DNA of 64,000 nucleotides. It comes from Acidobacteriota bacterium (GTDB lineage: Bacteria > Acidobacteriota > UBA6911 > RPQK01 > JACQSY01). The position numbers and the translations under genes are program-made. The stretch is taken from contig JACQSY010000020.1 of NCBI GenBank assembly GCA_016211085.1, positions 62,001-126,000 on the forward strand, written 5' to 3'. This document shows, in pieces, positions 3,570-40,988 of the stretch; within the stretch, counting starts at the first letter, position 1; every line of letters begins with the position of its first letter. The notes beneath the pieces are model-generated. The model did not search any database. It was not told where the DNA came from and saw nothing but the letters and a program-made list of their open reading frames with translations.

Positions 3570-3587
3570 CGACGCGTCTAGGTGAGG

Positions 3588-4012
3588 TCAAGCTGCTTGT
3601 GTAAATAAGTTGAGGGTGCGGTTTTTCCATTGGGGATCGAATCGGTTGAAGATGGAGAGGACGATTCGATCCCCAATGGCCATGTTGACAAAGCAGACCA
3701 TCGGTCGGGCACGTCTGCGAACCTCGACAAAGCATCGTTCAATGACATTGGTGGTCCGAAGCTTTCGGCGCAAGTGTTTGGGAAAGCCGAAAAAGGCCAG
3801 CAGCTCGGGCAGGTCCTTTTGCAGGGAAATGACCTGCCTGGGGTAGGCCCCTTGCCACCGGTGCTTGAAGTGCCGGAAGGCCGCGATCGCCTCGTTGCGG
3901 CTCTCTGCCAGGTCCGACCGTAAAGGTCTCCCCAAAAGCTCTCTTTGACCTCGCTCAGGAAATGCTGGAACTGCTCGGTTAGCGGAACTACTCTTTTCAT
4001 GGGTGTAAGCTC
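3588..4012 (-). pseudogene. IS256-family transposase remnant, internally deleted
   Basis: Two pieces of a mutator-type (IS256) DDE transposase lie on the minus strand. The N-terminal piece starts at 4000 or slightly upstream and carries LTEQFQHFLSEVKESFWGDL. It joins, out of frame near 3935, a C-terminal piece with RNEAIAAFRHFKHRWQGAYP, the conserved TTNVIERCFVEVRRR (holding the catalytic Glu) and the ending LFTQAA. A full-length family member is about 400 residues, so some 240 residues including the first two catalytic Asp are missing. The frame change sits exactly at the deletion junction. The gene cannot encode an active transposase. Confidence 0.85.
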
Positions 4013-4055
4013 CTTTCTCTGAAAGGTCGGTCTCTTGACAGAAACCAACTTACAC
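3599..4055. mobile_element. IS256-type element remnant, approximate limits
   Basis: The limits are set by a short shared end word: GTGTAA at 3599-3604 on the left and its complement TTACAC at 4050-4055 on the right, each placed just outside the transposase remnant. The match beyond these bases is weak (GTTG follows in both), so the true termini and any target-site duplication are not established. The element lies directly downstream of the M1-like gene and next to the ISNCY remnant. Confidence 0.45.
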
Positions 4056-4109
4056 TCTCTCCCTTTCACACCATCAAGATTACGTCACCCGCGACTCGGC
4101 TAAGTCACA

Positions 4110-5470
4110 TGTCCGTAGCAAATCAAGATGTCCGCTTTTTGTAGCAAGTGATCTGTCCGGTCGAGTTTTTGGTTCATGAGTTCCGCAGTGTGGGGAGTTC
4201 GCCGAAGGGGCGGTGGGAACGGTGGGAAAGCCGAAGGCTTTTGCAAGCCGCTGTGGGAATCCCGCTTTGGGGGATTTCCATCAAGGGCGGCCGTTCCACA
4301 GGCCTGCTGTTCTTTCTTTCTTTCTTTTTTGCTTCTTTTTTCTTTCTTCAGCAGAAGCTTGGCCATCCTCTGTCGGTCGCTATGCAGCTTTGTTTTTACT
4401 CTGCTGTGGTTGAACCGAAAGCGGCTCTCCCTGGGCGCGGTAGCAGCCCAGCAGGTGGGGACCACAGTAGAGGCTGAGGGTCTCATCCAGATGCCTGCAC
4501 ACCAGGGCGCGACAGCGCGCCATGCTGAAGCGAAATTTCTGTGGTGCAATCTGCAGCGTCAAGGAACCGAACGTCACCGTATTGTCGTTTTTTACGATGC
4601 GTTCCTCCTGGTGGGAGAAGATTTTTGGCAGCGCGGCTCCGGCATAAGGGACAAAGGCCGTGCCCTGATCTGGTGCCGGCACGCGGAAGTGCCGGTTGTG
4701 ATAAGGGATCCAGTGGTCGCGCAAAAAGGCATTGGCTGGGTTCAAGCTTTCAATGCCACGCTGGCGCAGCTCCTGGGGGAGTCTCCCTTGCCAGGTGCCA
4801 AAGAAGCGTTCGCAGCGTCCCCGGGTTTGGGGCGAGTAAGCCGGAATCAACTCGATCCCTCATGGCTCAAAAGCCCTCCCGATCTGGGTGTGGCGTTGTC
4901 GGCTGGGCCCCTCTCCGGCCTTCGGAGTGTGGAAAAAATGGCTGCCCCGGTCCGAGTAGACGGAGCAAAAACCCCGTGCTTCTCTGCCACCTCTTTGAAG
5001 GCCGCCATGACGGTGGCTGTACTCTCCTCTTCGACAAGTTGGGCGTAGTAGACCTCGTTGGTGGCATCCTCCAGGACCGCGATGAGGGTCATGCTGGACC
5101 CTGGTCAGCCAAGCGTGGCGGCTGCCATCCACATGCAGGAGCATGCCCGGAAGGGGACGCCGCGGCCTCTTGTTTCGATGCTTGCCCCGCTTACGGCTCT
5201 GGGCCACCAGTCCGGCAGTCTGCAGAGCATTTTTGATCCACGTGTAGCTGAGATCGATGCCGTGCTCCTGTTGGAGCTTTTCCGTAAAATGCCTCACGTT
5301 AAAATCGAAGTATTGCATCACCTTTTGAATCTTCATTGCTCGCTCCAGTGCACGGGCCCGATAAAGTCCCATCGATACTCCTCCCTAAAAGGAGCCTTTA
5401 TCCTAAGCCCGGCTCCAAGACCGGACATTTCATTTGCTACAGAGGGCGGACACTTCATTTGCTTAGCACA
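4110..5470. mobile_element. ISNCY-type insertion sequence remnant with long inverted ends
   Basis: The left end (4110-4163) and right end (5417-5470, read on the minus strand) match over about 50 bases. Both contain, in order, TGT, a word close to TAGCAAAT, TGTCCGC, TGTAGCAA and TGTCCGGTC. Within each end the word TGTCCG recurs (4110, 4129, 4154 on the left; 5422 and 5447 as CGGACA on the right), probably as transposase binding sites. The element begins TGT and ends ACA, about 1.36 kb. No clear target duplication is visible. It holds the broken transposase gene at 4380-5372 and a pyrimidine-rich tract at about 4307-4352. Confidence 0.75.
4380..5372 (-). pseudogene. ISNCY-family transposase, deleted, frameshifted and stopped
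   Basis: The minus strand encodes recognisable blocks of an rve/DDE integrase-type transposase: YFDFNVRHFTEKLQQEHGID, a basic KRGKHRNKRPRRPLPGM run, HVDGSRHAW (first catalytic Asp), ATNEVYYAQLVEEESTATVM, YSDRGSHFF (second Asp), IPAYSPQTRGRCERFFGTWQ (catalytic Glu) and a C-terminal LDETLSLYCGPHLLGCY. The blocks do not share one frame: the VYYAQLVEEE block is shifted relative to its neighbours (about 4950-5095), and an in-frame TGA sits at 4860-4862 between FEP and GIELIP. Near 5320 the sequence jumps from ALERAMKIQKVM straight to QYFDFN, so the usual helix-turn-helix part (roughly 70 residues) is missing. Inactive. Confidence 0.88.
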
Positions 5471-5578: not shown

Positions 5579-6855
5579 ATGGGCGAACCGACTGGAGTTG
5601 TCACAGACTACACCACCGCGAAGGGCGCTGCGGTTCCCTGGTACCGCCAGGCGACGCCCTACCAGAGGAAAACACTATTGGCCGCCTGGCTGGGGTGGAT
5701 GATGGACAGCATGGACCTGATGCTGTACTCGATGGTGGTCTCCTTCGTCATTCGTGATTTGGGGGCGAGTCAAGGGATTGGGGGGCTCTGGTCTCGGTAG
5801 CGCTCTTCGCCGCCGCCCTGGGAGGAATGCTGTTTGGTTTTATTGCCGATCGCATTGGCCGGACCAGGGCGATGATTGCCTCCATTCTGGTTTATTCGTT
5901 GGCCACTGCAGCCTGTGGGTTTGCTCAGAATATCTGGCAGCTGGCGGTCTTCAGATTCATACTGGGCCTGGGAATGGGGGGAGAATGGGCTTCAGGGGCC
6001 GCCCTGGTTTCGGAGACGTGGCCGCCGGAACACCGTGGGAAAGCACTCGGCATCATGCAAAGCGGCTGGGGCGTAGGCTATGCGGTTGCCGCTGCCGTGG
6101 GTGGCCTGCTGCTTCCTCTTTATGGTTGGCGCGCCGTGTTCTTTGCGGGAGCCGCCCCCGCTTTACTCACCCTATGGATCCGCACCGGCATCGAGGAACC
6201 TAAGATCTGGAAAGAAGCGCGACGAGAACAAAAGAGCCAGGACGCGGCGAAATTCCGTGACCTCTTTTACCCTCCCTATCGGCGCTACACTGTGGTCGTT
6301 TCCTGCATGAGCACGTTGACCCTGTTTGGATGGTGGGGGCTTTTCAGCTGGATCCCCGCCTATCTCGGTCAACCCGTCTCCGAAGGGGGGGCGGGGCTGA
6401 GTATTGTGAGAACTTCCATGTGGGTAATTCTTATGCAGACTGGAATGGTGGGAGGAGCCATTGGTTTCGGATTTATAGCCGACCGCCTTGGAAGGCGCGT
6501 GACGTATGCACTCTTTCTCCTTCCGGCAGCTGCTTTGATTCCTATTTACGGCAGCGCGGCGAGTCCCTTGCTGCTCCTGCTTTTGGGGCCGCCTCTGGCT
6601 TTCTTTGGAAATGGGCATTTTTCAGCACTGGCTCCCATCACGGCGGAATTGTTTCCTACGAGGATTCGCGCTACCGCTCAAGGGTTCACTTACAACATAG
6701 GCCGTTTGGGCAGTCTGGTCGCTCCCCCTTTGGTAGGTTTCCTGGCTCAGGAGCACGGCTTCGGGCTGGCGTTTTATGCCAGCAGCGTGGCCTATACCTT
6801 TGCAGCAATCGTGGCTTTCCTGCTTCCGGAAACGAAAGGGAAGGTTCTGAAATAA
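5579..6855 (+). pseudogene. MFS organic-acid/sugar transporter, one-base frameshift
   Basis: A major-facilitator transporter split into two frames. The 5' part (5579-5800) gives PWYRQATPYQRKTLLAAWLG and the first membrane helix, then runs into a stop. The 3' part continues with ALVSVALFAAALGG, FGFIADRIGRTRAM (the family motif between helices 2 and 3), the GLGMGGEWASGAALVSETW block of the aromatic-acid/sialic-acid symporter group, and the second half with FIADRLGRRV. The break is in a run of six G at 5780-5785; seven would restore one 425-residue frame. The ribosome site GGGGAATAATG fits the ATG at 5579. Either a natural frameshift (possibly slipping) or a sequence error. Confidence 0.82.
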
Positions 6856-7069
6856 GAGAATCTCCTGGCCCGCCAAACTGATCGAAGATTCAGTATGGAA
6901 CAATCCTGCGGGAAGGATCGTGAAACGTGCCTGGCCGGGCGGCGCAGTAAGTGGTCTACTGCCCTGTAAACCAAATTGACCCATTCCGCCACTTCCTCCA
7001 AAATGTTGCGACAAGAGCGGAGCTTGTCTGGATCCGGTGAAGCTTCGTTGCCAGGACTATGGGAAAATC

Positions 7070-8377
7070 ATGTTTAAAATGAAAGTCACTCATTCGTTTC
7101 ACACACTATTTCTAATGTTGTGCTTTTTCGCGGTTTCCTCCCTCCAGGCTCAGGAAACTCTGACGCTTCAGGAATCCTTGGCTCAGGCAAAGGCTAATCC
7201 CCGATACCAGGCAAGATTGCAGTTTGCCGAGTCGCTCCAGGGGAAAGCCATTCAGGCGGGAAAGAGGCCGAACCCTTATCTGGAAACGCAGGGAGAGTTT
7301 GTGCCGTCGGATGTTTCTGAAGAGCACTCGCTTTCCCTGGTGCTCTGGCAAAAATGGGAACGAGGTGGAAAACGGAAATTCCGCACCGAGGTCGCTCAGT
7401 CCGAAGTGAAGCAGTTCACCCTGGAGTCTGAAGACTTCTTGCGCTCTTTGACGGCGGAGATAAGTTTTGCATACATCAACTTGCTGCAACTGGAAAAACA
7501 AATCGAGATTTTAGAGGGTTATAGCCAGCGAATTGGACAGCTGATCAAGGTTGATGAAATCCGAGTCAGCGAAGGCGAGATCGCGGCATTGAATCTTGAT
7601 TACCTGCGTTCAGAAGTGCTGCTTTTTGGCGCGCGAAAAGATCAGATGGAGTCTGAGTTAAAAAGAAGTCGATACCGCTTCAATGAGCTGGTGGGCCTGC
7701 CTGCCGACTCGTCTCATCGCTTGCAGGTCGACGAATTTCCCCGACCGGCGCTTCCTGCGCCCCAGCAGGCTATTGCTTATGCCCTTTCCAACCGTCCGGA
7801 TCTCAAGCGGCTGCGGGAGGCGATTTCCGGTGCTGATGGGCGCATAAGGCTAGAACGGGCTCTTGGAAAGCAGGATTGGTCGCTTGGATTAGGGTACAAG
7901 CGTGCGCGGGATGGGTTCGATGACATTCGACTTACTCCCCTTTCCCATGGTCTTACAGATACGGACCACCTAATGGAAGTGAAGCTTACTATCCCGTTCG
8001 CAGTATGGGATAATAATGCCGGTAACATTGCCGCAGCCATAGGCGCCAGGAAAGCCACGGAACGCGATTTGGAAGCGGCAGAATCTCGAGTAAGAAGAGA
8101 GGTTCTTTACGCGCTGGAGCAGGTTCGTATCAGCCAGCGGCAGATTGAGACCTATCAGAAGAATCTACGGCCTCAGGTCGAGGACCGATTCCGCCGTATT
8201 GAGGCTTCCTACCAGTTGACCGGTCAAGGTCATCTTGATTGGCTTCAAAGCTTACGAGACGCGGTGGACGCCAGTATGAACGTGCTTGGAAGTGATTTCC
8301 AATTGTGGAAGTCACTGGTTCAACTGGAACGGGAGCTAGGCGGAAGTATTGAAGAAGCCACACGTGCCGGTTCATAA
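7070..8377 (+). CDS. TolC-family outer-membrane efflux channel
   Basis: 435 residues from the ATG at 7070; a second ATG lies at 7079 and the frame is also open from 7037. I chose 7070 because it leads into a signal peptide (KVTHSFHTLFLMLCFFAVSS, ending LQAQ). The mature part has the long alpha-helical hairpin composition of outer membrane factors (OEP family), with Pro-rich YALSNRPDLKRLREAI typical of the repeat. It would be the trimeric exit duct of the RND pump encoded downstream. The same-strand genes 8417-14556 follow closely, consistent with one operon. The closest families are the CusC/CzcC type found with metal pumps; substrate not shown by sequence. Confidence 0.88.
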   Translation: MFKMKVTHSFHTLFLMLCFFAVSSLQAQETLTLQESLAQAKANPRYQARLQFAESLQGKAIQAGKRPNPYLETQGEFVPSDVSEEHSLSLVLWQKWERGGKRKFRTEVAQSEVKQFTLESEDFLRSLTAEISFAYINLLQLEKQIEILEGYSQRIGQLIKVDEIRVSEGEIAALNLDYLRSEVLLFGARKDQMESELKRSRYRFNELVGLPADSSHRLQVDEFPRPALPAPQQAIAYALSNRPDLKRLREAISGADGRIRLERALGKQDWSLGLGYKRARDGFDDIRLTPLSHGLTDTDHLMEVKLTIPFAVWDNNAGNIAAAIGARKATERDLEAAESRVRREVLYALEQVRISQRQIETYQKNLRPQVEDRFRRIEASYQLTGQGHLDWLQSLRDAVDASMNVLGSDFQLWKSLVQLERELGGSIEEATRAGS

Positions 8378-8416
8378 TTAGGCGTCTGTCAGGAATACTT
8401 TCGTGGAGCAGGAAGA

Positions 8417-8965
8417 ATGAAAAAAACGCTGTTTGTGGTCTTACTCCTGTGGGCTTTTCTGGCGCCGGTTGCCGCCCACGAAGCAACACTTTCTCACGCG
8501 ACGTTGAAGACAATTTTTCCTGAGGCTGAGAACTTCATCACGCGCAAAAAAGTTTTCTCTGCCCAGGAAGTGGCCAGGATTGAAAAAACACTTCAAAGCA
8601 CTCTGCCCGAAGCCGACAAGAATCTCACTATGTTCGTAGCCGTTGCAAAAGACCCAAAGACGCAGAAGCCGCGTTCGTTGGGCGCCGTTTTGATGGTCGA
8701 CGCCCAGGGTGCACAAGGTCCGGTCGATTTGGCCGTCAGTTACCGAATGGATGGCAGCGTACGAAAAGTGGTGGTGCTCAAGAACGATGATGACAAGAAG
8801 CTCGAAAGCCCTTCCTTTCTCCGTCAATTCGAGGGAAAAGGCCCGTCCAGCGGCTGGGAGATAGGGAAAGACCTTCAGTTGAGCGGCAACACCACCAGTT
8901 CCAAGGCTGTTATCCTGGCCGTGCGGCGCGGAATGCAACTTTTTCAGGCGGTACGAGGTCAATGA
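8417..8965 (+). CDS. Periplasmic FMN-binding-domain protein
   Basis: 182 residues with a signal peptide (MKKTLFVVLLLWAFLAPVAA followed by HEATL). The rest fits the FMN-binding domain of the RnfG/NqrC/NosR group: a central strand region around LGAVLMVDAQGAQGPVDLAV, a DGSVRKVVVLKN segment and a C-terminal LSGNTTSSKAVILAVRRG. In the family, flavin is attached to a Thr in a motif like SGAT-x-S; here the sequence is SGNTTSS, so a Thr is present but the Ala is replaced by Asn. Its ATG follows the channel gene by 39 bases and its stop overlaps the next start (ATGA, 8962-8965). Inference: a redox partner of the efflux system. Flavinylation is possible but unproven. Confidence 0.75.
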   Translation: MKKTLFVVLLLWAFLAPVAAHEATLSHATLKTIFPEAENFITRKKVFSAQEVARIEKTLQSTLPEADKNLTMFVAVAKDPKTQKPRSLGAVLMVDAQGAQGPVDLAVSYRMDGSVRKVVVLKNDDDKKLESPSFLRQFEGKGPSSGWEIGKDLQLSGNTTSSKAVILAVRRGMQLFQAVRGQ

Positions 8966-10527
8966 AAAAGATTTCGGCAGTCTGTACCCTTCTTTTTACA
9001 GGATTTGTTTGGGGCCACGAAGGTGTGCAACACGGGGCAGGTGACGAGATTCACCCGCGTCTTGAAGTCATCCAAGCCGGCCCAGGCGATCGTTTTCGCA
9101 TCACGGTGGCTCAGCTGCCCGATGCGCCCCTGGAAGGACAAGCAACACAATTTCTGATCAAAGCTGAACAGAAGATTGAAGGGGGAGATGCCCTGCTTGG
9201 AGAAACCTTGCCCTTTGAGGGGGAGCTAGAGGCTTCCTTTAAAGGTCCAGGTAAAAGCGAGGTCGCCAGCCTTAAGAAGGAAGAAGAACCGGGAATATAC
9301 CGGTTGGAATATAGTTTCAATGAGTCCGGAGAATGGCAGCTTCTGATCAAACTTGCATCGGGTGCGGATGAAGTATCCGCCTCGGTTCCCGTCCGCATAA
9401 AACCTGTACCCCGAAACTGGACTCTGCTTCTTTTGCAGGGTTGCATTGCATTTGCAGCTATTGGCTTTGCGGTTCACCGAGCGTTGGTCAGTGCTCCGCG
9501 AAGCACCGCCATTGTTCCTTCCTTGATTAGTTTGATCATTGGCGGAGGCGCTTTGATCGGCTTGCGACAACTGTGGCCGCCTCCCTTTGAAGTATCAGGA
9601 AACGTTCTCGAGGTGGGGGCACTTCTGCAACAGGAACAAGAACAGCCTGTTCTGCTTGAGGAAGAACCACAGTCAGTCAGTTCGTCAGGGTCCGTCGACG
9701 CTTATGTCTCGCCAACGGCGGCTTTCAGCGGCATTGTCGTTCACGCAACCGATCGGATTGCAGAGGTGCGCAGCCCGCTGGCTGGAGCTGTGGTCTACAA
9801 GGGCAAAGTCCCCACCGTGGGGGACCGGGTGCGTTCCGGGCAGGTTTTGGCGCACATCCAAAATAAGTTTAATGTCCACGATTATTCTCATTTGTTTAAT
9901 CAAAGGTGGGACCTTGTTAAGGTTGTTCTACGGGCGAAGGAAACACAGGTGCGGGCCGAGGCCGCCTATGAGCGCGCGGCTTATCTTCTGGAGTTGGGAA
10001 CCATTTCAAAGAGGGAATTTGGAGCCGCCGAATTGGCTTTGAACACCGCTAACGAAGCCCTTAAGGAGGCCGAAGAACGCCTGGCGCTTCATGACAAGCA
10101 AATTGCGCAGACCGACCTGAAAGAGACTGAAGTGGTTGCACCCATTGACGGACAAATCAGCCGGGCCACGTATTCCTTGGGACAGGTCATTTATGAGGGC
10201 GATCCTATATTTCAAATTGTCGATCCGTCTGTGGTTTGGGTAGAAGTGAATGTCTTGCCCAGGGACGTGAGCCGGCTGCAGGGTAAGTCTCAAGTGACCT
10301 TACGTTCCCACGCCTTTCCCGAAAAATCCTTCCGGGGACGGCTGCTTCGTGTCCGGGCCGATGCGGATCCTGTCTCAAAAGCTCTACGTTATGTCTATGA
10401 AGTTCGAAACAAGGAGTACTGGCTTAAACCGGGAATGCTGTTGGATGTCGAAGTGGGCGGCAAAACAGAGGGAACCCAGATTGCGACGGCCGGCGATCAC
10501 TCAGGTCCGGTAGGGGGTGGAAATTAG
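8962..10527 (+). CDS. RND periplasmic adaptor with N-terminal sensor-like domain and membrane hairpin
   Basis: 521 residues in three parts. Residues 1-18 are a signal peptide, followed at once by a His-rich start (GHEGVQHGAGDEIH). About 30-148 is an Ig-like beta domain. Two hydrophobic helices (about 152-176 and 183-203) then form a hairpin in the inner membrane. Residues about 255-510 are a HlyD/CusB-type membrane-fusion protein: lipoyl half (SPLAGAVVYKGKVPTVGDRV), helical hairpin (RAEAAYERAAYLLELG), second lipoyl half (VVAPIDGQISRATYSLGQVI) and beta barrel. Typical adaptors lack the first three parts. The gene overlaps its neighbours by 4 and 1 bases, so translation is probably coupled. The adaptor role is firm, the N-terminal role is inference. 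Confidence 0.85.
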   Translation: MKKISAVCTLLFTGFVWGHEGVQHGAGDEIHPRLEVIQAGPGDRFRITVAQLPDAPLEGQATQFLIKAEQKIEGGDALLGETLPFEGELEASFKGPGKSEVASLKKEEEPGIYRLEYSFNESGEWQLLIKLASGADEVSASVPVRIKPVPRNWTLLLLQGCIAFAAIGFAVHRALVSAPRSTAIVPSLISLIIGGGALIGLRQLWPPPFEVSGNVLEVGALLQQEQEQPVLLEEEPQSVSSSGSVDAYVSPTAAFSGIVVHATDRIAEVRSPLAGAVVYKGKVPTVGDRVRSGQVLAHIQNKFNVHDYSHLFNQRWDLVKVVLRAKETQVRAEAAYERAAYLLELGTISKREFGAAELALNTANEALKEAEERLALHDKQIAQTDLKETEVVAPIDGQISRATYSLGQVIYEGDPIFQIVDPSVVWVEVNVLPRDVSRLQGKSQVTLRSHAFPEKSFRGRLLRVRADADPVSKALRYVYEVRNKEYWLKPGMLLDVEVGGKTEGTQIATAGDHSGPVGGGN

Positions 10528-11387
10528 TGATTCGCATTTTTAGTTTTTTAACCGTCGTTATCTTCGCGCTACCGGTCACTTTTGCTCTTCCGCTGGAGGA
10601 CGATCTAATTGACGCAAAGGCGGTCAACCCCGCAGGGTTTCTAGGTGAGGTAATCGCCAAGCCGCAACTGGTTGCGGAAGTGGTAGCTCCTTTGTGGGGC
10701 AAGATCTACCTGGAAAAAGATGTTTTCGTCGGTGCGCCGGTTAAGAAGGGCCAGAACTTGGCAAGGATCGTTCTCGAGCTCAATGCAGTCGAACGCCTTC
10801 TTCTCAATGATCGCACCATTGAAATCAACCAGGTGGCTGAAGCGGCCCGTCACAGGACGCGTTCCACACTAAGCGATTATATGCGTGCCCAGAAAATCGC
10901 TGAGCAAAATCCAGAATTCAAGGCCGAGGCGGAACGGCGCAAGAAAATTTACGAGAATGCGGTTAATGAATACCAAACGCTGATGCAGCAAAAAGCCCGT
11001 CAGTCCAGTGTGATCAAAAGCCGCGATCCCCGAACGCTGGTGGTGACCGCGCCCATTTCAGGTTACATAAGTGAAATCCTCTTTGTTCCCGGTGAGGTGA
11101 ACGCGACTGATGAATTCCGCAGGATGTTTACCATTGTGGATCTTTCTACGGTGTGGATTCACGTGGATGTTTATGAAAAAGACCTTTCGTTGATCCGCTC
11201 TGCCCGGTCGGCTCACGTTACAACTGAAGCATTTCCGGGGAAAGTTTTTTTGGCACGTTTTCATGCGCTGGGAAGCGAAATTGCCCCCCAAACTCGAACC
11301 ATCCCGGCGTATTTTGAGGTGGCAAACCCTGGAGAAGCCTTGAAGATCGGAGTCCCGGTCCGCATAAAGCCTCTCCAGACCGAGTAG
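10527..11387 (+). CDS. Second HlyD-type efflux adaptor
   Basis: 286 residues from a GTG that overlaps the last base of the preceding stop. A signal peptide (IRIFSFLTVVIFALPVTFAL) is followed by a short membrane-fusion protein: first lipoyl half VVAPLWGKIYLEKDVFVGAP, a helical hairpin (about residues 90-150, with QNPEF and YENAVNEYQTLMQQ), second half VVTAPISGYISEILFVPGEV and a beta-barrel part with STVWIHVDVYEKDL. It is half the length of the adaptor before it and only distantly similar, so the locus encodes two non-identical adaptors for one pump. RND pumps use six adaptor protomers per trimer, so a mixed ring is possible. The family call is secure. Confidence 0.88.
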   Translation: MIRIFSFLTVVIFALPVTFALPLEDDLIDAKAVNPAGFLGEVIAKPQLVAEVVAPLWGKIYLEKDVFVGAPVKKGQNLARIVLELNAVERLLLNDRTIEINQVAEAARHRTRSTLSDYMRAQKIAEQNPEFKAEAERRKKIYENAVNEYQTLMQQKARQSSVIKSRDPRTLVVTAPISGYISEILFVPGEVNATDEFRRMFTIVDLSTVWIHVDVYEKDLSLIRSARSAHVTTEAFPGKVFLARFHALGSEIAPQTRTIPAYFEVANPGEALKIGVPVRIKPLQTE

Positions 11388-11409
11388 GCCCAGCAAGACT
11401 TCAAAAATA

Positions 11410-14400
11410 ATGCTGAACGCTATAATTCGTTTTTCCCTACAAAACCGGCTGCTCGTGGTCGCGGCCTCAGCTTTTATCGCCGTCTATGGAACTTACTTGA
11501 TCATTCATTTTCCCATTGACGTGCTGCCCGACATCAACCGTCCAGTTGTGACGATCATGACCGAGTCGCATGGTCTTGCTCCAGAGGAGGTGGAACGTCT
11601 GGTGACCTTTCCCCTGGAGACTCTGCTTAACGGCGCCACCAATGTGGAGAGGGTCCGTTCCGTCTCGGCTCCCGGTCTCTCGATCATTTACGTCGAGTTT
11701 GACTGGAATACGGACATCTATATTGCACGCCAAATTGTGAACGAGCGACTGCAGCTTTCTGCAGCACAACTTCCTCCCGCTGTGACGCCGGTCATGGGGC
11801 CCATTAGTTCCATCATGGGCGGTATCCACCTTTTAAGCGTTCGGGCTGAAAACGGGGCCGCCTCTGAGCTCGACCTTCGCACCCTTGCCGACTGGGTGAT
11901 CCGCCCCCGACTGCTTGCCATTCCTGGTGTGGCCCAGGTCGTCAACATGGGAGGCGGCGTCAAGCAGTATCAGGCCCTGTTGGATCCCAATCGAATGCGC
12001 GATCTCTCCATCAGCCTCGCAGAGGTTGAACAGGCGGTCCTCTTTTCGAACTCCAGCACTAGCGGAGGTTTTCTTGATCGGCAGGGTCAGGAGTTTCTAA
12101 TCAGAAACGTAGGCCGTATTCAAAGCCTGGAGGATCTGGCCAACACCGTCGTGGCTGTTCGAGGCAACGTCCCCGTTTACGTGAAAGACATCGCACGCGT
12201 GCAGTTTGGTGCTCGAATCAAGCGTGGGGAGTCCTCTTACGAGGGCCAGCACAGCGTGATCATGCAAATCACCAAGCAGCCCGGCGCCAATACTGTGGAG
12301 TTGACCAGAAAGGTCGAAGCGGCGTTGGCTGAGATTCGCCAGGGCCTTCCCAAAGGGGTGGTGGTGGACGAGGCTGTTTTTAGACAGGCTGATTTTATCG
12401 AGCATGCCATAGCCAATGTTATAGAAGCGCTGCGCGACGGCTCTATCCTGGTTTTCATCGTCCTAATTATTTTTCTGCTCAATTTTCGCACCACTGCTAT
12501 CACACTTACGGCCATACCGCTGTCCTTCATGATCACCGCGCTGGTTATGAAAGCTTTGGGCATCGGAGTCAATACCATGACCCTGGGAGGGCTGGCGATC
12601 GCCATTGGCGAGTTGGTGGACGATGCAATCGTAGATGTCGAGAACGTTTTTCGCCGTCTCCGCGAAAACCGCCAGAAAGAAAAACCGGAGCCACCTCTCA
12701 CCGTGGTTTTTAGAGCATCCAGCGAAATTCGTAATTCCATTGTTTATGCGACGTTGATTGTCATCCTGGTCTTCTTACCTCTCTTTTTTCTGAGCGGCGT
12801 GGAGGGGCGCCTGTTCACACCTCTTGGGGTGGCCTATGTTGTGTCCATTCTGGCTTCTCTGGTCGTTTCGCTGACGTTAACTCCAGTTCTGTGTTATTAC
12901 CTCCTACGCCGAGCTCGCATCCTGGAGCGCAAACATGACGGCTGGTTAGTCCGCCATCTGAAGCAGCTGGAAACTCGCCTGCTTGCGGTTACATTGGATC
13001 ATCCGTGGAAGGTGATCATCGGTGCAGCCTTGTTGGTGGTTATCTCCATTTCGCTCGTGCCTTTGATGGGTCGCGAATTCCTTCCACCGTTCAATGAGGG
13101 AAGTTTCACTGTCCTGGTACTGGCAAGACCGGGAATTTCTTTGGAACAATCTGATCGTCTAGGCTCCCGCGCCGAACAGCTCATCCTCCAGGTGCCGGAG
13201 ATCGTTTCAACAGGCCGCAGGACGGGACGGGCTGAGCTGGATGAGCATGCTGAGGGTGTGCACTATTCGGAAATTGAGGTCACAATTAAAGAAGGCCGCT
13301 CCAAGGATGAAATCATGGCCGACATCCGAAACCGGCTTTCTCAGATCCAGGGAGTCGAAGTCAATATTGGTCAGCCCATTTCACATCGTATTGACCACTT
13401 GCTCTCAGGCAGCTTTTCTCAAATCGCGGTCAAGATTTTTGGAGAAGATTTGACCACCCTGCGGCGGCTGGCTGAGCAGGTGGAGGATGTGATGGATGAT
13501 GTCCCCGGGGTAGAAGATCTTTACATTGAGCAACAGGTACAAATTCCTCAAATACGGATCCAGATAGACCGTTCGGCATCCGCCAAGTACGGCATCCCCG
13601 TAGGTCAGATTACGGAGGCGCTGGAATCTGCCTACAACGGGCGCGTTATCACTCAAGTCCTGGAGGAACAGCGCAGCTTTGATGTTTTTCTGAGATTGGA
13701 TGAGCCTTGGCGGAGCACTTTGGATTTTGTTGACGATTTGCCCATCGATGTTCCCGGCGGGAGCAAGGTTCCTTTGAGTCAGCTGGCCAGCATTGAAATG
13801 GCCACCGGGCCCAACCAGATCCTGCGCGAAAATGCGTTGCGACGCATTGTGGTCCAGTGTAATGTTGCTGGAAGAGATCTGGGCAGTGTGGTCCAAGATA
13901 TCCAACAACGCGTTAAGGATCAGGTGGAATTCCCGGAAAGTTATTTTGTCAGCTACGGCGGACAGTTCGAAAGCCAAATCAGTGCAACACGATTGATTTT
14001 TCTGCTCTCCATCATTTCCATAGGGGGTATTTTTGTGCTGCTCTATGGGCATTTTGGACATGCCCGTATTGCGCTGCAGATCATGTCCAATCTGCCCCTG
14101 GCCATGATTGGCGCCGTCGCCGCTATCTTTATTACCGGGGGGACGCTGTCGGTGGCCACCCTTGTAGGATTTATTACGCTATGCGGGATTGCTTCGCGCA
14201 ACGGCATCATGATGATCTCGCACTACATCCACCTGATGCGATATGAAGGTGAAGTTTTTGGCAGGCCAATGATTGTTCGGGGTACTCTGGAACGGCTTGT
14301 TCCCGTGATGATGACGGCTCTCACAGCAGCAATTGGGGTGCTTCCTTTGGCTCTCTCTCAAGGTGTTCCCGGGAAGGAAATTCTGCATCCTGTTGCCGTC

Positions 14401-14556
14401 GTCATTTTAGGTGGTCTTTTGAGCTCAACTTCCCTCGATATGGTGGTGACACCGGCGCTTTTCTACAAGTTCGGTAAAGCGATCTTCGAAAAGCCTATGG
14501 TTGTAAAAACGGACGATTTGGAACAGGAGGCAAAAAGACTCACGGCGATGGGCTAA
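11410..14556 (+). CDS. RND efflux permease, heavy-metal (CusA/CzcA-like) type
   Basis: 1048 residues, the normal length for an RND pump. It begins with the cytoplasmic-edge helix MLNAIIRFSLQNRLLVV, then helix 1, the first periplasmic pore domain (DVLPDINRPVV, FDWNTDIYIARQIVNERL), helices 2-6 and the second half with the same plan. The helix-4 motif reads AIAIGELVDDAIVDVEN near residue 400; the acidic residues relay protons. This matches CusA/SilA in having Ala where CzcA has the first Asp. Two membrane blocks (about 340-545 and 870-1030) are clear. It uses the proton gradient to drive substrate from periplasm or membrane through the TolC-like channel. Metal specificity is inferred from family resemblance. 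Confidence 0.93.
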   Translation: MLNAIIRFSLQNRLLVVAASAFIAVYGTYLIIHFPIDVLPDINRPVVTIMTESHGLAPEEVERLVTFPLETLLNGATNVERVRSVSAPGLSIIYVEFDWNTDIYIARQIVNERLQLSAAQLPPAVTPVMGPISSIMGGIHLLSVRAENGAASELDLRTLADWVIRPRLLAIPGVAQVVNMGGGVKQYQALLDPNRMRDLSISLAEVEQAVLFSNSSTSGGFLDRQGQEFLIRNVGRIQSLEDLANTVVAVRGNVPVYVKDIARVQFGARIKRGESSYEGQHSVIMQITKQPGANTVELTRKVEAALAEIRQGLPKGVVVDEAVFRQADFIEHAIANVIEALRDGSILVFIVLIIFLLNFRTTAITLTAIPLSFMITALVMKALGIGVNTMTLGGLAIAIGELVDDAIVDVENVFRRLRENRQKEKPEPPLTVVFRASSEIRNSIVYATLIVILVFLPLFFLSGVEGRLFTPLGVAYVVSILASLVVSLTLTPVLCYYLLRRARILERKHDGWLVRHLKQLETRLLAVTLDHPWKVIIGAALLVVISISLVPLMGREFLPPFNEGSFTVLVLARPGISLEQSDRLGSRAEQLILQVPEIVSTGRRTGRAELDEHAEGVHYSEIEVTIKEGRSKDEIMADIRNRLSQIQGVEVNIGQPISHRIDHLLSGSFSQIAVKIFGEDLTTLRRLAEQVEDVMDDVPGVEDLYIEQQVQIPQIRIQIDRSASAKYGIPVGQITEALESAYNGRVITQVLEEQRSFDVFLRLDEPWRSTLDFVDDLPIDVPGGSKVPLSQLASIEMATGPNQILRENALRRIVVQCNVAGRDLGSVVQDIQQRVKDQVEFPESYFVSYGGQFESQISATRLIFLLSIISIGGIFVLLYGHFGHARIALQIMSNLPLAMIGAVAAIFITGGTLSVATLVGFITLCGIASRNGIMMISHYIHLMRYEGEVFGRPMIVRGTLERLVPVMMTALTAAIGVLPLALSQGVPGKEILHPVAVVILGGLLSSTSLDMVVTPALFYKFGKAIFEKPMVVKTDDLEQEAKRLTAMG

Positions 14557-14782: not shown

Positions 14783-16138
14783 TTGAGTTCCCACGACCAG
14801 GGAAGACATGTTGCGGCGGTTGTTGGTGGCGCCATAGCTGGATCCGTAGCTGCAGAGGTCTTGACTTCGGCAGGCGTGCTGTGTGTAGTCCTGGAGCAAA
14901 ATGACCGTCCTTATGGAAAGATTGAGGACGGACTACCTCGCTGGCATGTCAAACAGCGGAAGCTGGAATATGAGCGCATTGATTCCCGCCTGGATCATCC
15001 CTGCGTCCATTTTCTGCCGCGCACTCGTCTGGGAAGGGACATCGACTTTAGAGAATTGATTGAGCAATGGGGTTTCAGCGTGGTTCTTCTTGCCAACGGC
15101 GCCTGGAAGGACCGTCCTCTCCCGGTTGAAGGCATTGATGAGTACGTTTGTAAAGGGTTGGTTTATCAGAATCCGTTGATTTACTGGTTTAATCACAAGA
15201 ACGAAAAAAGCTACACAGGCCCTCGCTATGAAATTCAGCCTGGAACCATTGTGATCGGGGGAGGATTGGCTTCTATTGACGTTGTAAAAGTCATTCAGTT
15301 CGAGTTGTACGAGAAAGCGTTGTGCGCGCGAGGGATTGATACTTCGATGCTTGAGCTCGAGCACAAGGGTGTTCCTGCCGTGTGCGCCTCCCACCAGATC
15401 GATCCGGGTGAGTTGATGATCGACGATTGTACTCTGTATTACCGCCGCAGAGCAGTGGACATGCCTCTGGCACAGTTTCCCGAGAACGCCTCCCAGGAAC
15501 AAATTGAAAAAACACAAGCGGTGCGAAAAAAAATACTCACTCGCGTCATGGAAAAATACCGCGTCCGTTTTAAAGAATGCCACGCCCCTGTCGGGGCCCT
15601 GGTGGAGAACGGCCGCCTGGTGGGTCTTCGTTTCATTCAGACTCGCGTCGAAGGCGGCAAGGCGGTTCCCCTGCCTGGTTCCGAGCTAGAGGTCTACACA
15701 TCCCTGGTTGTATCTTCGATCGGCAGTATACCGGAACTAATCCCCGGGATCGAGATGAAGGGGGAGCTTTACAAATTTTCTGATCCTGAGACCGGAGAAT
15801 ACATGGGCTGCGAGGGTGTATTTGGAATTGGCAATGTCGTTACCGGCCAGGGAAATATCATGATCTCGCAGAAACACTCTCAGCAACTTTCCAGGCGCAT
15901 CCTCGAAAACTATCTGGGTTTAGGGCCGAGAGATACGGTCAGTCCGCTCTTTGAGAACGGGGAGGAGGTGGTACGTCAAAAGCTGGAGCCGGTCAAGGCT
16001 GCTATACAGAAAAAGCCGCCGCTGTCCACCGCGCAAATATCTTGTATTCTGGAACGTGTGCAACGCCGGCAGCGTGAAATCGGGTATAAGAACTACCGCG
16101 ATTGGATTAAGAAGGTCACCCCCCCGGACCTCGAATAA
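14783..16138 (+). CDS. FAD/NAD(P)-dependent oxidoreductase, GltD/ferredoxin-NADP-reductase-like
   Basis: 451 residues from a TTG start preceded by AGGAGGGG at the right distance. Residues 12-50 are the FAD-binding Rossmann fold (VVGGAIAGSVAAEVL, then VVLEQNDRPYGKIEDGLPR, as in GltD and adrenodoxin-reductase-like enzymes). A second nucleotide fold starts near 155 (TIVIGGGLASIDVVKV) and a C-terminal FGIGNVVTGQGN closes the FAD site. The first glycine motif reads GGAIAG, not GxGxxG, a mild deviation. No iron-sulfur cysteines are seen. It follows the RND operon on the same strand after 226 bases; the physiological electron partner is unknown. The FMN-binding protein at 8417 is periplasmic and this enzyme cytoplasmic, so direct contact is unlikely. 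Confidence 0.82.
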   Translation: MSSHDQGRHVAAVVGGAIAGSVAAEVLTSAGVLCVVLEQNDRPYGKIEDGLPRWHVKQRKLEYERIDSRLDHPCVHFLPRTRLGRDIDFRELIEQWGFSVVLLANGAWKDRPLPVEGIDEYVCKGLVYQNPLIYWFNHKNEKSYTGPRYEIQPGTIVIGGGLASIDVVKVIQFELYEKALCARGIDTSMLELEHKGVPAVCASHQIDPGELMIDDCTLYYRRRAVDMPLAQFPENASQEQIEKTQAVRKKILTRVMEKYRVRFKECHAPVGALVENGRLVGLRFIQTRVEGGKAVPLPGSELEVYTSLVVSSIGSIPELIPGIEMKGELYKFSDPETGEYMGCEGVFGIGNVVTGQGNIMISQKHSQQLSRRILENYLGLGPRDTVSPLFENGEEVVRQKLEPVKAAIQKKPPLSTAQISCILERVQRRQREIGYKNYRDWIKKVTPPDLE

Positions 16139-16182: not shown

Positions 16183-17004
16183 TTACCTGCTGACGCGGAC
16201 CGGGAAACTGCAGGAGACAACCCGGCTACCGATTTTGAATTGTGCGAAGATCCTGTAATCTCCTGCCTGAGAAAACGTGTAACGTACGGGTACAACGGGC
16301 CCCAAATAGGACTGTGAGGCGCCGGAATCTCCGTGGTGCCCCCTATGTCCGCCTCCGCTAAGATCCTCCTGTACAAAACTGTGGGTGTGACCGAAATCCA
16401 GCAGATCGCTTTTCCAAACAGCGACGTGAACTTCCGAACCAAGGTATACCTCGAGATTCTTGACGTCGTCTCCTTTCTCATCTTTGAGAAAAAACTGAAG
16501 CGATGCCGGCCGATTTGCCTTTAACTCTGAAGGCTCGATGGAAAGCCCAATATAGAATCCTTCAAAGTAACCCGCGATCGGCGGCTTTCCTTTAGCTTCC
16601 GGCACAGTCAGAACTACCCGTTGGACGGTTCGTTTTCCATCGGCGACGTAATCCACCACAATTTCATAACGGCCACTTGTCGGAAAGACGAAAGGGAAGT
16701 GAAAAGTGGCTGCATTAATATCGTCCTGAGTAAGCGGACCGTAATCGTCGTGGTGGACATGTCTGAAAAAATCCAGGGACTGATTGACTATGAAGACGTG
16801 CACCAGGCGGTCATGAGATATTTCCAGGTTTTGCGCAGGGCGTCCATTGGTTTCCAGGATCTGAAAGAATACTTCCACCTTTTCCCAGGGCTCAAGTCGC
16901 GGCTCCACCCAGTACCTCAGGGTTGTTTCTGAATTCTTCGCGGCGGCTTGACCGAAAAACATCAGCACGCCGAGCACTCCTGGGAGAAAGAATTTCCCCT
17001 GCAA
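16183..17004 (-). CDS. Secreted His-rich two-domain protein, putative metal binding
   Basis: 273 residues, TTG start with GGAGG upstream (minus strand), signal peptide GKFFLPGVLGVLMFFGQAAA. The protein consists of two similar halves, each an Ig-like beta domain with the pattern HV-x-(V)-x-L-D-F-x-H-x-H: LVHVFIVNQSLDFFRHVHHD (about 66-85) and VHVAVWKSDLLDFGHTHSF (about 190-208), followed by a GGGHRGHHGD loop. This motif is familiar from periplasmic domains found beside metal efflux pumps. It lies convergent to the oxidoreductase gene, 45 bases apart. Inference: a periplasmic copper or other soft-metal binding protein related to the RND locus. No enzymatic motif. Confidence 0.6.
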   Translation of the reverse strand: MQGKFFLPGVLGVLMFFGQAAAKNSETTLRYWVEPRLEPWEKVEVFFQILETNGRPAQNLEISHDRLVHVFIVNQSLDFFRHVHHDDYGPLTQDDINAATFHFPFVFPTSGRYEIVVDYVADGKRTVQRVVLTVPEAKGKPPIAGYFEGFYIGLSIEPSELKANRPASLQFFLKDEKGDDVKNLEVYLGSEVHVAVWKSDLLDFGHTHSFVQEDLSGGGHRGHHGDSGASQSYLGPVVPVRYTFSQAGDYRIFAQFKIGSRVVSCSFPVRVSR

Positions 17005-38693: not shown

Positions 38694-40988
38694 ATGAAAG
38701 CAAGTAATGGGGCTTGGCGCGAGCGGCTTTTGGGACGGATGCCCGAACACGTGGCGCGCGAGGTCGACATTTACGAGACGGAAATCGAGTTGCGCAAGCA
38801 GGGGAAAATAGAAGAGAAGCTCTTTGCGGAAACGCGGCTTCGCCGCGGGGTTTATGGTCAGCGTTACGACAACGGACAGCGCTGGGATGGGGAAAAAACC
38901 CAACAACTGGGGTTCCCCAGTGCTACGTTGACCAAAGGTCCGAGCACCGTTTGGGATGCCCCGGGAATGCAACGAATCAAGATACCTTTTGGGGGATTGA
39001 CAACCCTCCAGTTGGAGGTATTGGCTGAGTTAGCTGAGGAGTACTCGGATGGAATTGCCCACGTTACAACCCGACAGGATTTTCAGCTGCATTTTGTGCA
39101 TATTGAAGATACTCCCACTTTGATGAGACGGCTGGCTGCCGTGGGCATCACCACTCGCGAGGCTTGCGGAAACACCGTGCGGAACGTCACCGCTTGTCCT
39201 TATGCCGGCGTCTGCCGGGACGAAGCCTTTGATGTCACACCCTACGCTCGCGCCTGTGCTTATTTTCTGCTGGGACATCCGGACACTCAGGACTTTGGCC
39301 GCAAGTTCAAAGTAGCTTTTTCAGGATGCGAGCAGCACGCCTGCGGACTGGTCAACCTTCATGACATGGGCGCTGTTGCCGTGAAGCGGCTTGAAAACGG
39401 CAAAGAAAGGCGTGGCTTCGCGTTTTATGTGGGGGGCGGATTGGGCGCTGTTCCGCATTCTGCCAAGCTGTTCTCAGAGTTCCTGCCGGAGGAGGAGTTG
39501 CTCCCCACGGCCCAGGCCATTTCCCGTGTTTTTGCACGAATGGGTGAAAAGAAGAATCGCAACCGCGCCCGCCTGAAATTCCTGGTGAGTGATTTGGGGA
39601 TTGAGGAATTTCGGCGAATCGTCCTGGAAGAACGTGCCCAGCTTGCTCCTGATCCAGCTTGGACCGACTACCTGAAAAAGGTCGACGCGGTCACCGAGAC
39701 CCCGCTGAAGCTGTTGGCACCTTTGAATAGCCATTCTGTTCCGGAAGGATTTGAGCGCTGGCTCCAGACCAACGTGGCTCGCCAGCGTCAAGCAGGTTAT
39801 GCGGTCGCGACCATCGCGTTGCCCCTGGGCGATATCACTTCCGATCAATTGCGGTCGCTTGCCGGAATCGCCCGCAGACACGTTAACGACACCATTCGAA
39901 CAACGGTTGAGCAGAACATCGTGCTGCGTTGGGTACGCGAAGCCGATCTTCAGCAGCTTTACCTGGAGCTGAAGGAAATCGGGCTGGCAGAACCCGGAGC
40001 CGGCACCATCGTAGACATAGTCGCCTGCCCGGGGACGGATACCTGCAAGCTGGGTATTGCTTCCTCTCGGGGCCTGGCAGCAGAACTGCGCACCCGATTA
40101 GCAGAGCGCAATCATGAGTTGGAACAAGCGGTACAAAACCTTCACATCAAAATCAGTGGCTGCTTTAATTCCTGCGGACAGCACCATATTTCAGATCTGG
40201 GGTTCTACGGTGTGAGTCGTCACGTCGGCGGACATACCGTTCCTCATTTCCAGCTGGTATTAGGCGGGCAGTGGGCGCAGAACGCGGGAAGCTATGGGCT
40301 GGCTATATGTGCCATTCCGGCCAAGCGCGTTCCCGAGACGGTACAACGATTGACGGATCGTTACCTTAAGGACCGTGAGAGAGCTGAAAGCTTTCAGAGC
40401 TTCGTTAAACGTATTGGAAAGGCTGAGATCAAGCGTATGCTTGAGGACCTGATGCGAGTGCCGCCCCACAACGAGGATCCTTCTTTTTACTCAGACTGGG
40501 GAGACCCGAGGGAATTCACTATCGGGGACATGGGTGTGGGTGAATGTGCCGGAGAAGTCGTTTCTCGCGTGGCATTTGAACTTGCGGCGGCCGAGCGTGA
40601 GGTCTTCGAAGCTCAGGTCAGCCTTGAGCGCGGTGAGTATCAACAAGCGGGTGAAAAGGCGTACCAAGCCATGCTGCAAGCGGCGCGGGCCGTGGTTCGA
40701 ATGCAGTACTACGATGTACCGGGTGAGGCGGAGACCATTGTGAGAGAATTCAAGGCTCGGTTTTATGAGACGCAACTGTTCTTTGACCCGTTTGCAGGGG
40801 GGAAATTTGGTCAGTTTCTCTTTCGCGCTCACGAACGAGCCGCTGTTTCTTTTACGCAGGAATCGGCCCACCAGCGGATCGAGGAAGCGCAACTCTTTGT
40901 GGAAGCGGCATACAGTTGCGAAGCTCGTGTAAGCGCCGCCGGCAGTTTACCCAAGGCAAGCCCGCCGGCCTTGCAGAGCCGCTCCTGA
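38694..40988 (+). CDS. Siroheme nitrite/sulfite reductase with C-terminal HEPN-like extension
   Basis: 764 residues, preceded by TTAGGAGTGC. Residues about 80-600 form the duplicated siroheme-reductase core. The C-terminal half shows CPGTDTC (near 445-451) and ISGCFNSC (near 488-492), the ligands of the coupled [4Fe-4S]-siroheme centre. The N-terminal half also has CPYAGVC (near 168) and SGCEQHACG (near 213), where classical enzymes have lost the cysteines. About residues 604-750 are an added helical domain (EVVSRVAFELAAAEREVFEA, QAGEKAYQAMLQAARAVV, RIEEAQLFVEAAYSCEA) of HEPN-like pattern. With the divergent APS reductase, sulfite reduction is the likely role. It ends 7 bases before the next gene. 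Confidence 0.88.
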   Translation: MKASNGAWRERLLGRMPEHVAREVDIYETEIELRKQGKIEEKLFAETRLRRGVYGQRYDNGQRWDGEKTQQLGFPSATLTKGPSTVWDAPGMQRIKIPFGGLTTLQLEVLAELAEEYSDGIAHVTTRQDFQLHFVHIEDTPTLMRRLAAVGITTREACGNTVRNVTACPYAGVCRDEAFDVTPYARACAYFLLGHPDTQDFGRKFKVAFSGCEQHACGLVNLHDMGAVAVKRLENGKERRGFAFYVGGGLGAVPHSAKLFSEFLPEEELLPTAQAISRVFARMGEKKNRNRARLKFLVSDLGIEEFRRIVLEERAQLAPDPAWTDYLKKVDAVTETPLKLLAPLNSHSVPEGFERWLQTNVARQRQAGYAVATIALPLGDITSDQLRSLAGIARRHVNDTIRTTVEQNIVLRWVREADLQQLYLELKEIGLAEPGAGTIVDIVACPGTDTCKLGIASSRGLAAELRTRLAERNHELEQAVQNLHIKISGCFNSCGQHHISDLGFYGVSRHVGGHTVPHFQLVLGGQWAQNAGSYGLAICAIPAKRVPETVQRLTDRYLKDRERAESFQSFVKRIGKAEIKRMLEDLMRVPPHNEDPSFYSDWGDPREFTIGDMGVGECAGEVVSRVAFELAAAEREVFEAQVSLERGEYQQAGEKAYQAMLQAARAVVRMQYYDVPGEAETIVREFKARFYETQLFFDPFAGGKFGQFLFRAHERAAVSFTQESAHQRIEEAQLFVEAAYSCEARVSAAGSLPKASPPALQSRS

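Follow-up and report, generated by a model that had tools for sequence, protein, structure and literature searches.

The window analysed here, a 64,000-nucleotide stretch of an acidobacterial genome, carries an RND efflux operon in which an FMN_bind-like exported protein, termed F, accompanies a CusA/CzcA-type pump. The operon belongs to the heavy-metal RND efflux operons and forms no new category, and the F-pump combination is real, conserved and, in the papers searched, apparently undescribed. As an explanation that we prefer tentatively, at somewhat less than even confidence, we propose that the flavin-domain fold of F took over a new task, the handling of metal in the periplasm as an accessory to an RND pump of the copper/silver type. 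A literature search for the pairing of FMN-binding proteins with RND, CusA or efflux, with subscription papers mostly outside its reach, yielded no report, and neither RND nor efflux occurs in the main text of two large surveys of flavinylated systems (PMC8238504, PMC11334425).

The operon consists of five co-oriented genes at positions 7070-14556 of the window. An outer-membrane channel of the TolC/OEP family (7070..8377, plus strand; PF02321, E 3.6e-27; alternative GTG start at 7037) is followed by F (8417..8965, plus strand), a long adaptor with a CusB-type barrel-sandwich domain (adaptor 1; 8962..10527, plus strand; PF16576, E 3.7e-23, PF13437, and PF13115 below the cut-off at E 5e-4), a short barrel-sandwich adaptor (adaptor 2; 10527..11387, plus strand; PF16576, E 1.3e-27) and the RND pump (11410..14556, plus strand), which belongs to the CusA/CzcA heavy-metal family with 843 bits against a TIGR00914 cut-off of 701. 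The F gene runs 4 nt into that of adaptor 1, the two adaptor genes share 1 nt, and the remaining gaps measure 39 and 22 nt. Gene calls together with the Pfam and TIGR00914 matches thus confirm the gene order and the middle overlaps given in the original prediction. In a scan of the operon for promoters and terminators, sites were no commoner than in shuffled sequence. The source genome comprises 3.5 Mb at 87% completeness, and the named relatives are metagenome-assembled Acidobacteriota; class and order of the compared genomes were assigned by kinship.

F of the window scores 21.8 bits against PF04205, just under the cut-off of 22, and matches the NCBIfam model rnfG with E 4e-6, yet far under the cut-off of that model. 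Its AF2 model has a mean pLDDT of 89.7, and in Foldseek it comes closest to RnfG (E 8.6e-6) and NqrC (E 7.8e-5). F proteins fall into two groups, clade A from the class of the window and clade B from another acidobacterial class. With a clade-A profile, a sequence search of the PDB reached RnfG only at E 0.04-0.05. The structural model of a clade-B F matches NqrC weakly (E 0.03), which counts against the proposed metal accessory. A Pfam scan of a single clade-B F gave no FMN_bind match, and a mixed F set scanned at E up to 1 gave one for 7 of 34 members. Clade-B proteins mostly escape the FMN_bind model and are therefore likely to be filed as hypothetical lipoproteins. No CusF match to F was obtained in the Pfam scans. 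That the two clades are unrelated is ruled out by hhalign (98.9%, E 2.6e-17) and by a reciprocal profile hit.

The flavin transferase ApbE joins FMN to the last residue of the motif D-x-x-[S/T]-G-A-[S/T]; in a tested protein, exchange of the motif Thr for Ala abolished flavinylation and exchange of the Ala for Val halved attachment (PMC12052999). An intact [S/T]GA[S/T] was found in none of the 39 aligned F members of both clades. The clade-A site reads SGNT in the window (residues 156-159), where Thr is kept at the flavin position, and elsewhere VGNP, AGNP, TGNP, VGNT, SGDS or VGDP, so that Pro occupies the flavin residue in six of nine proteins (six of the eight siblings of the window F). Clade B shows NGVD, NGAK, NGAD and similar, and the acceptor residue is absent. 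In the same alignment the Ala-Thr pair is kept by the RnfG of genome G052, by the ApbE-adjacent FMN_bind gene of the window's own genome and by two others. Since the motif is lost in the aligned F members and the comparison proteins keep its Ala-Thr pair, flavin-based redox chemistry is, on sequence grounds, not supported as the function of the F family, and F, judged by its motif, probably no longer takes up covalent flavin. The Thr of the window may still serve, or F may keep a loose non-covalent flavin site. A gene annotated as FMN_bind within an RND operon does not necessarily encode a flavoprotein.

A lack of ApbE in the genome is ruled out as the reason for the missing motif. The single ApbE found there (E 2e-57) is encoded on a contig separate from that of the operon (G000 contig C150; L028, 898-4335), beside an FMN_bind gene with an intact AGATLT. 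This cluster, which also holds a porin-like gene and a gene for a small membrane protein that is four-helix-like and has no Pfam match, is likely a genuine system of flavin-based electron transfer. No membrane electron-transfer partner was seen in the gene runs containing F at clade-A and clade-B loci. The original prediction had suggested that F, as a periplasmic flavoprotein, could adjust the redox state of the substrate, a metal or an organic compound, ahead of its export. The RnfG/NqrC fold, the Thr retained in the window, the halved rather than abolished attachment after Ala-to-Val exchange in another protein (PMC12052999) and the presence of an ApbE speak for this idea. We nevertheless regard it as very improbable in view of the 39 disrupted motifs, the missing electron-transfer partner, the position of ApbE next to a different, motif-intact FMN_bind gene, and an acceptor that is Pro in most clade-A proteins and absent in clade B, its replacement abolishing flavinylation in the tested protein (PMC12052999). 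F thus shares the fold (in the window) and the general domain layout with RnfG, NqrC and other ApbE substrates but differs from them in the lost motif, in the lack of an Rnf-, Nqr- or PepSY-type partner and in the constant company of an RND pump.

Seven further genomes, all from the order or class of the window, encode clade-A orthologues of F (33-59% identity). The complete order channel, F, adaptor 1, adaptor 2, pump is present in another family of the class (L019). Locus L021 shows channel, F and adaptor 1 before the contig ends, and L025, beginning near a contig start, shows F, two adaptors and the pump. Four genomes (L020, L022, L023, L024), all of one family, have F directly 5′ of the pump, and the module of channel, adaptor 1 and adaptor 2 is sited elsewhere without F (L146, L147, L148; in L150 visible only as the end of adaptor 2). 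An assignment of F to the adaptors is ruled out, since F stays with the pump where the operon is split. Within the order of the window, pumps with at least 57% identity were found in six genomes, exactly the six with F; the more distant pumps, at 50-52% identity, belong to different operons, and in these F was not found. These sister operons (L066, L074, L077-L083) are likewise of the CusA/CzcA type and come from genomes of the same order as the window; as far as their contigs reach, they have a channel and a single adaptor. They differ by the absence of F and, in several cases, by BlaI-like and M56-like genes upstream, recognised by sequence and not by Pfam. A second, lone F paralogue was observed near a contig end in genome G008 (L026, 531-1094), with no pump seen on that contig.

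Clade B was entered through a diverged F homologue in genome G338 (E 3e-19), and F was detected in 35 genomes of the class of G338. In all 29 loci read, F precedes the adaptor, and the order channel, F, adaptor holds for 28, the exception being a contig that starts at F. The pump follows downstream in the same run at 15 of the 20 longer stretches; four end at contig ends, and in L124 the pump is absent and the channel frame is broken. Conversely, a pump sharing at least 68% identity with the G338 pump is encoded in 29 genomes of this class, of which 24 carry F. Contig ends cut the operon in four of the five F-less genomes; in the fifth, G275, the operon belongs to the same pump clade and is intact, yet F is missing (L162, 5066-12404).

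In a maximum-likelihood tree of the pumps, all F-bearing pumps form one clade (UFBoot 100) that spans the two acidobacterial classes, with the group of the window at UFBoot 92. This single clade, the channel-F-adaptor order recurring at about 30 loci and the F-pump pair kept in the family with split operons show that F does not stand beside the pump by chance. The coupling of F to the pump in the original prediction is borne out by this co-occurrence (six of six in the order of the window, 24 of 29 in the second class), and a search of orthologous neighbourhoods, proposed there as a check, finds the gene conserved in both classes. For phyla beyond Acidobacteriota, coverage consisted of a contig pattern scan and a plasmid search. 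The pattern scan gave no match with a single F sequence and ten named loci with an F alignment, nine acidobacterial and one from Treponema (25% identity); a tblastn search of plasmids gave no match for either the window F or one clade-B F.

The main rival to a metal-handling role holds that F is a structural or gating subunit which docks on the pump or on the N-terminal domain of an adaptor, binds no metal and uses the old flavin fold as a mere scaffold. The split operons, which leave F with the pump and not with channel and adaptors, agree with this explanation. So does G275, whose operon lacks F and whose adaptor also lacks the N-terminal domain; this joint loss is a hint that F works with that domain, and an intact clade-B operon without F argues in addition against the metal accessory. 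Clade-A F proteins are poor in histidine and have no conserved cysteine. Their only invariant histidine is H21 (nine of nine), located just after an apparent signal peptide whose cleavage site was judged by eye, and in three of the nine it is the sole histidine; the histidines of clade B are absent. This sparseness fits a structural subunit and weighs against metal handling. What a structural subunit leaves unexplained is clade B itself, where H83, H108, H170, H214 and M204 are invariant, H107 is conserved to 96% and H212 to 89%, and where five of six histidine columns versus 38 of 143 others are conserved to at least 95% (Fisher p 0.008, uncorrected). We consider a purely structural role unlikely, though less so than the remaining alternatives.

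Most of the long clade-B loci have copper-type genes. The operons include, in varying combinations, YtkA/cupredoxin proteins, a stand-alone cupredoxin, DUF305, an HMA-domain P-type ATPase, a multicopper oxidase and MerR, each kind identified by Pfam in one representative (including Cupredoxin_1) and the rest by similarity or position. Four clade-A genomes have a CopC-CopD fusion at a distance of one gene from the separated channel-adaptor module, and Pfam confirms the fusion in two of them. No copper gene adjoins the operon of the window, which counts against the metal accessory. An exported YtkA-like protein is encoded convergently with it (16183..17004, minus strand) and was recognised by blastp of the loci, its distant homologues (24-29% identity) lying inside clade-B operons; a Pfam scan of this protein gave nothing above cut-off, and its membership of the system is tentative. 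Among the stresses listed in the original prediction, copper or silver is the best-supported substrate of the pump, an assignment made entirely from gene context.

Export of divalent metals (Zn, Co, Ni) or of organic compounds by the pump, with the copper genes adjoining it through co-selection only, is rather improbable. The nearest solved structures of the window pump are ZneA and CusA. In the PDB alignment, the CusA methionines Met573, Met623 and Met672 are replaced by Leu569, Tyr619 and His663, and in the residue table none of the other F-bearing pumps has Met at these positions either; the missing triad also argues against the metal accessory. A pattern of His, Glu and Asp (E609, D611, H613, E621, H659, D662, H663) is present in the pump and also in most F-less sister pumps, and the best solved relative of adaptor 2 is ZneB, a CzcB-like protein (PDB 3lnn). 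These residues, the relationship to ZneB and the lack of a copper gene beside the window operon favour divalent or organic substrates; such substrates are opposed by the copper-type genes of most long clade-B loci and, separately in clade A, by CopC-CopD beside the split module. The acidic proton-relay residues of TM4 (D404, D405, E411) are invariant in all F-bearing pumps, which also have in common M934, M935, H938 and H941 (window numbering) in a membrane segment. At 934-941 the residues of the F-less sister pumps are mostly Leu, Arg or Asp, a difference that possibly reflects an altered metal or proton path.

Both adaptors of the window match HlyD_D23/HlyD_3. Adaptor 1 has in addition hydrophobic segments and an N-terminal YtkA-like stretch that scores under the Pfam cut-off; in L025 it is the other adaptor that carries the long N-terminal domain. 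The N-terminus of the window adaptor 1 reads H-E-G-V-Q-H, and [A/G]-H-x-G-x-x-H occurs in each of the six clade-A adaptors read and in many, not all, of those of clade B. As sequence evidence for a role in metal binding this motif is only suggestive, because the F-less sister adaptors have His-rich N-termini too. The two different adaptors stressed in the original prediction are present in the window and in L019, L025, L146 and L147, but are a trait of this group only, the clade-B operons of about 30 genomes having one. Two-adaptor RND operons are unusual and not new, since TriABC-OpmH of Pseudomonas aeruginosa, a drug pump outside the heavy-metal family and without F, is likewise encoded with two different adaptor genes (PMC8277102).

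For the interpretation of F we return to the metal-handling accessory, whose model is the cus operon of Escherichia coli, ordered cusC-F-B-A, with CusF as periplasmic metallochaperone. In that system Cu(I) is exchanged between CusF and the N-terminal part of the adaptor CusB (PMC6235853). The acidobacterial operons resemble CusCFBA in the order of channel, small periplasmic protein, adaptor and TIGR00914 pump, and relatives of the window operon keep the company of copper genes. They differ in that F has the FMN_bind fold and not that of CusF, in the pump without the CusA Met triad and, in the group of the window, in the second adaptor. A CusF-like role is proposed because F occupies the CusF slot, a likeness of position only, and by this analogy the role of F would most likely be comparable to that of CusF. 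The channel, adaptors and CusA/CzcA-type pump would form a heavy-metal efflux complex, most likely for copper or silver, and F would bind periplasmic metal and either hand it to adaptor and pump or gate them with it. Candidate ligands are the conserved histidines and the one Met in clade B, and in the group of the window the mature N-terminal His of F, joined by the H-x-G-x-x-H at the N-terminus of adaptor 1. The more specific idea is distinctly less secure, about one chance in three in our judgement: F may represent a new periplasmic copper-binding family of Acidobacteriota, derived from FMN_bind by loss of the flavin site and, at least in the second class, gain of His and Met, which takes the place of CusF as donor or gate of a copper-exporting RND complex. 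If the metal-handling role is true, a redox-carrier fold was recruited as constant partner by a metal efflux complex, and a fold unrelated to that of CusF is able to do CusF-like work.

Several further genes were observed in the window. Minus-strand ORFs at 3578-5372 resemble broken transposase pieces; the only piece scanned (4863-5372) gave no Pfam match. The ORF at 5827-6855 encodes an MFS transporter similar to aromatic acid/sialate symporters and starts about 50-70 residues inside the family models, which suggests a truncation or frameshift at its beginning. A FAD/NAD(P)-binding oxidoreductase with weak likeness to the glutamate synthase small subunit (14783-16138) starts 226 bases 3′ of the pump and was not seen in the related operons. 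At 38694-40988, the window encodes a nitrite/sulphite reductase-type protein with two NIR_SIR and two ferredoxin-like half domains.
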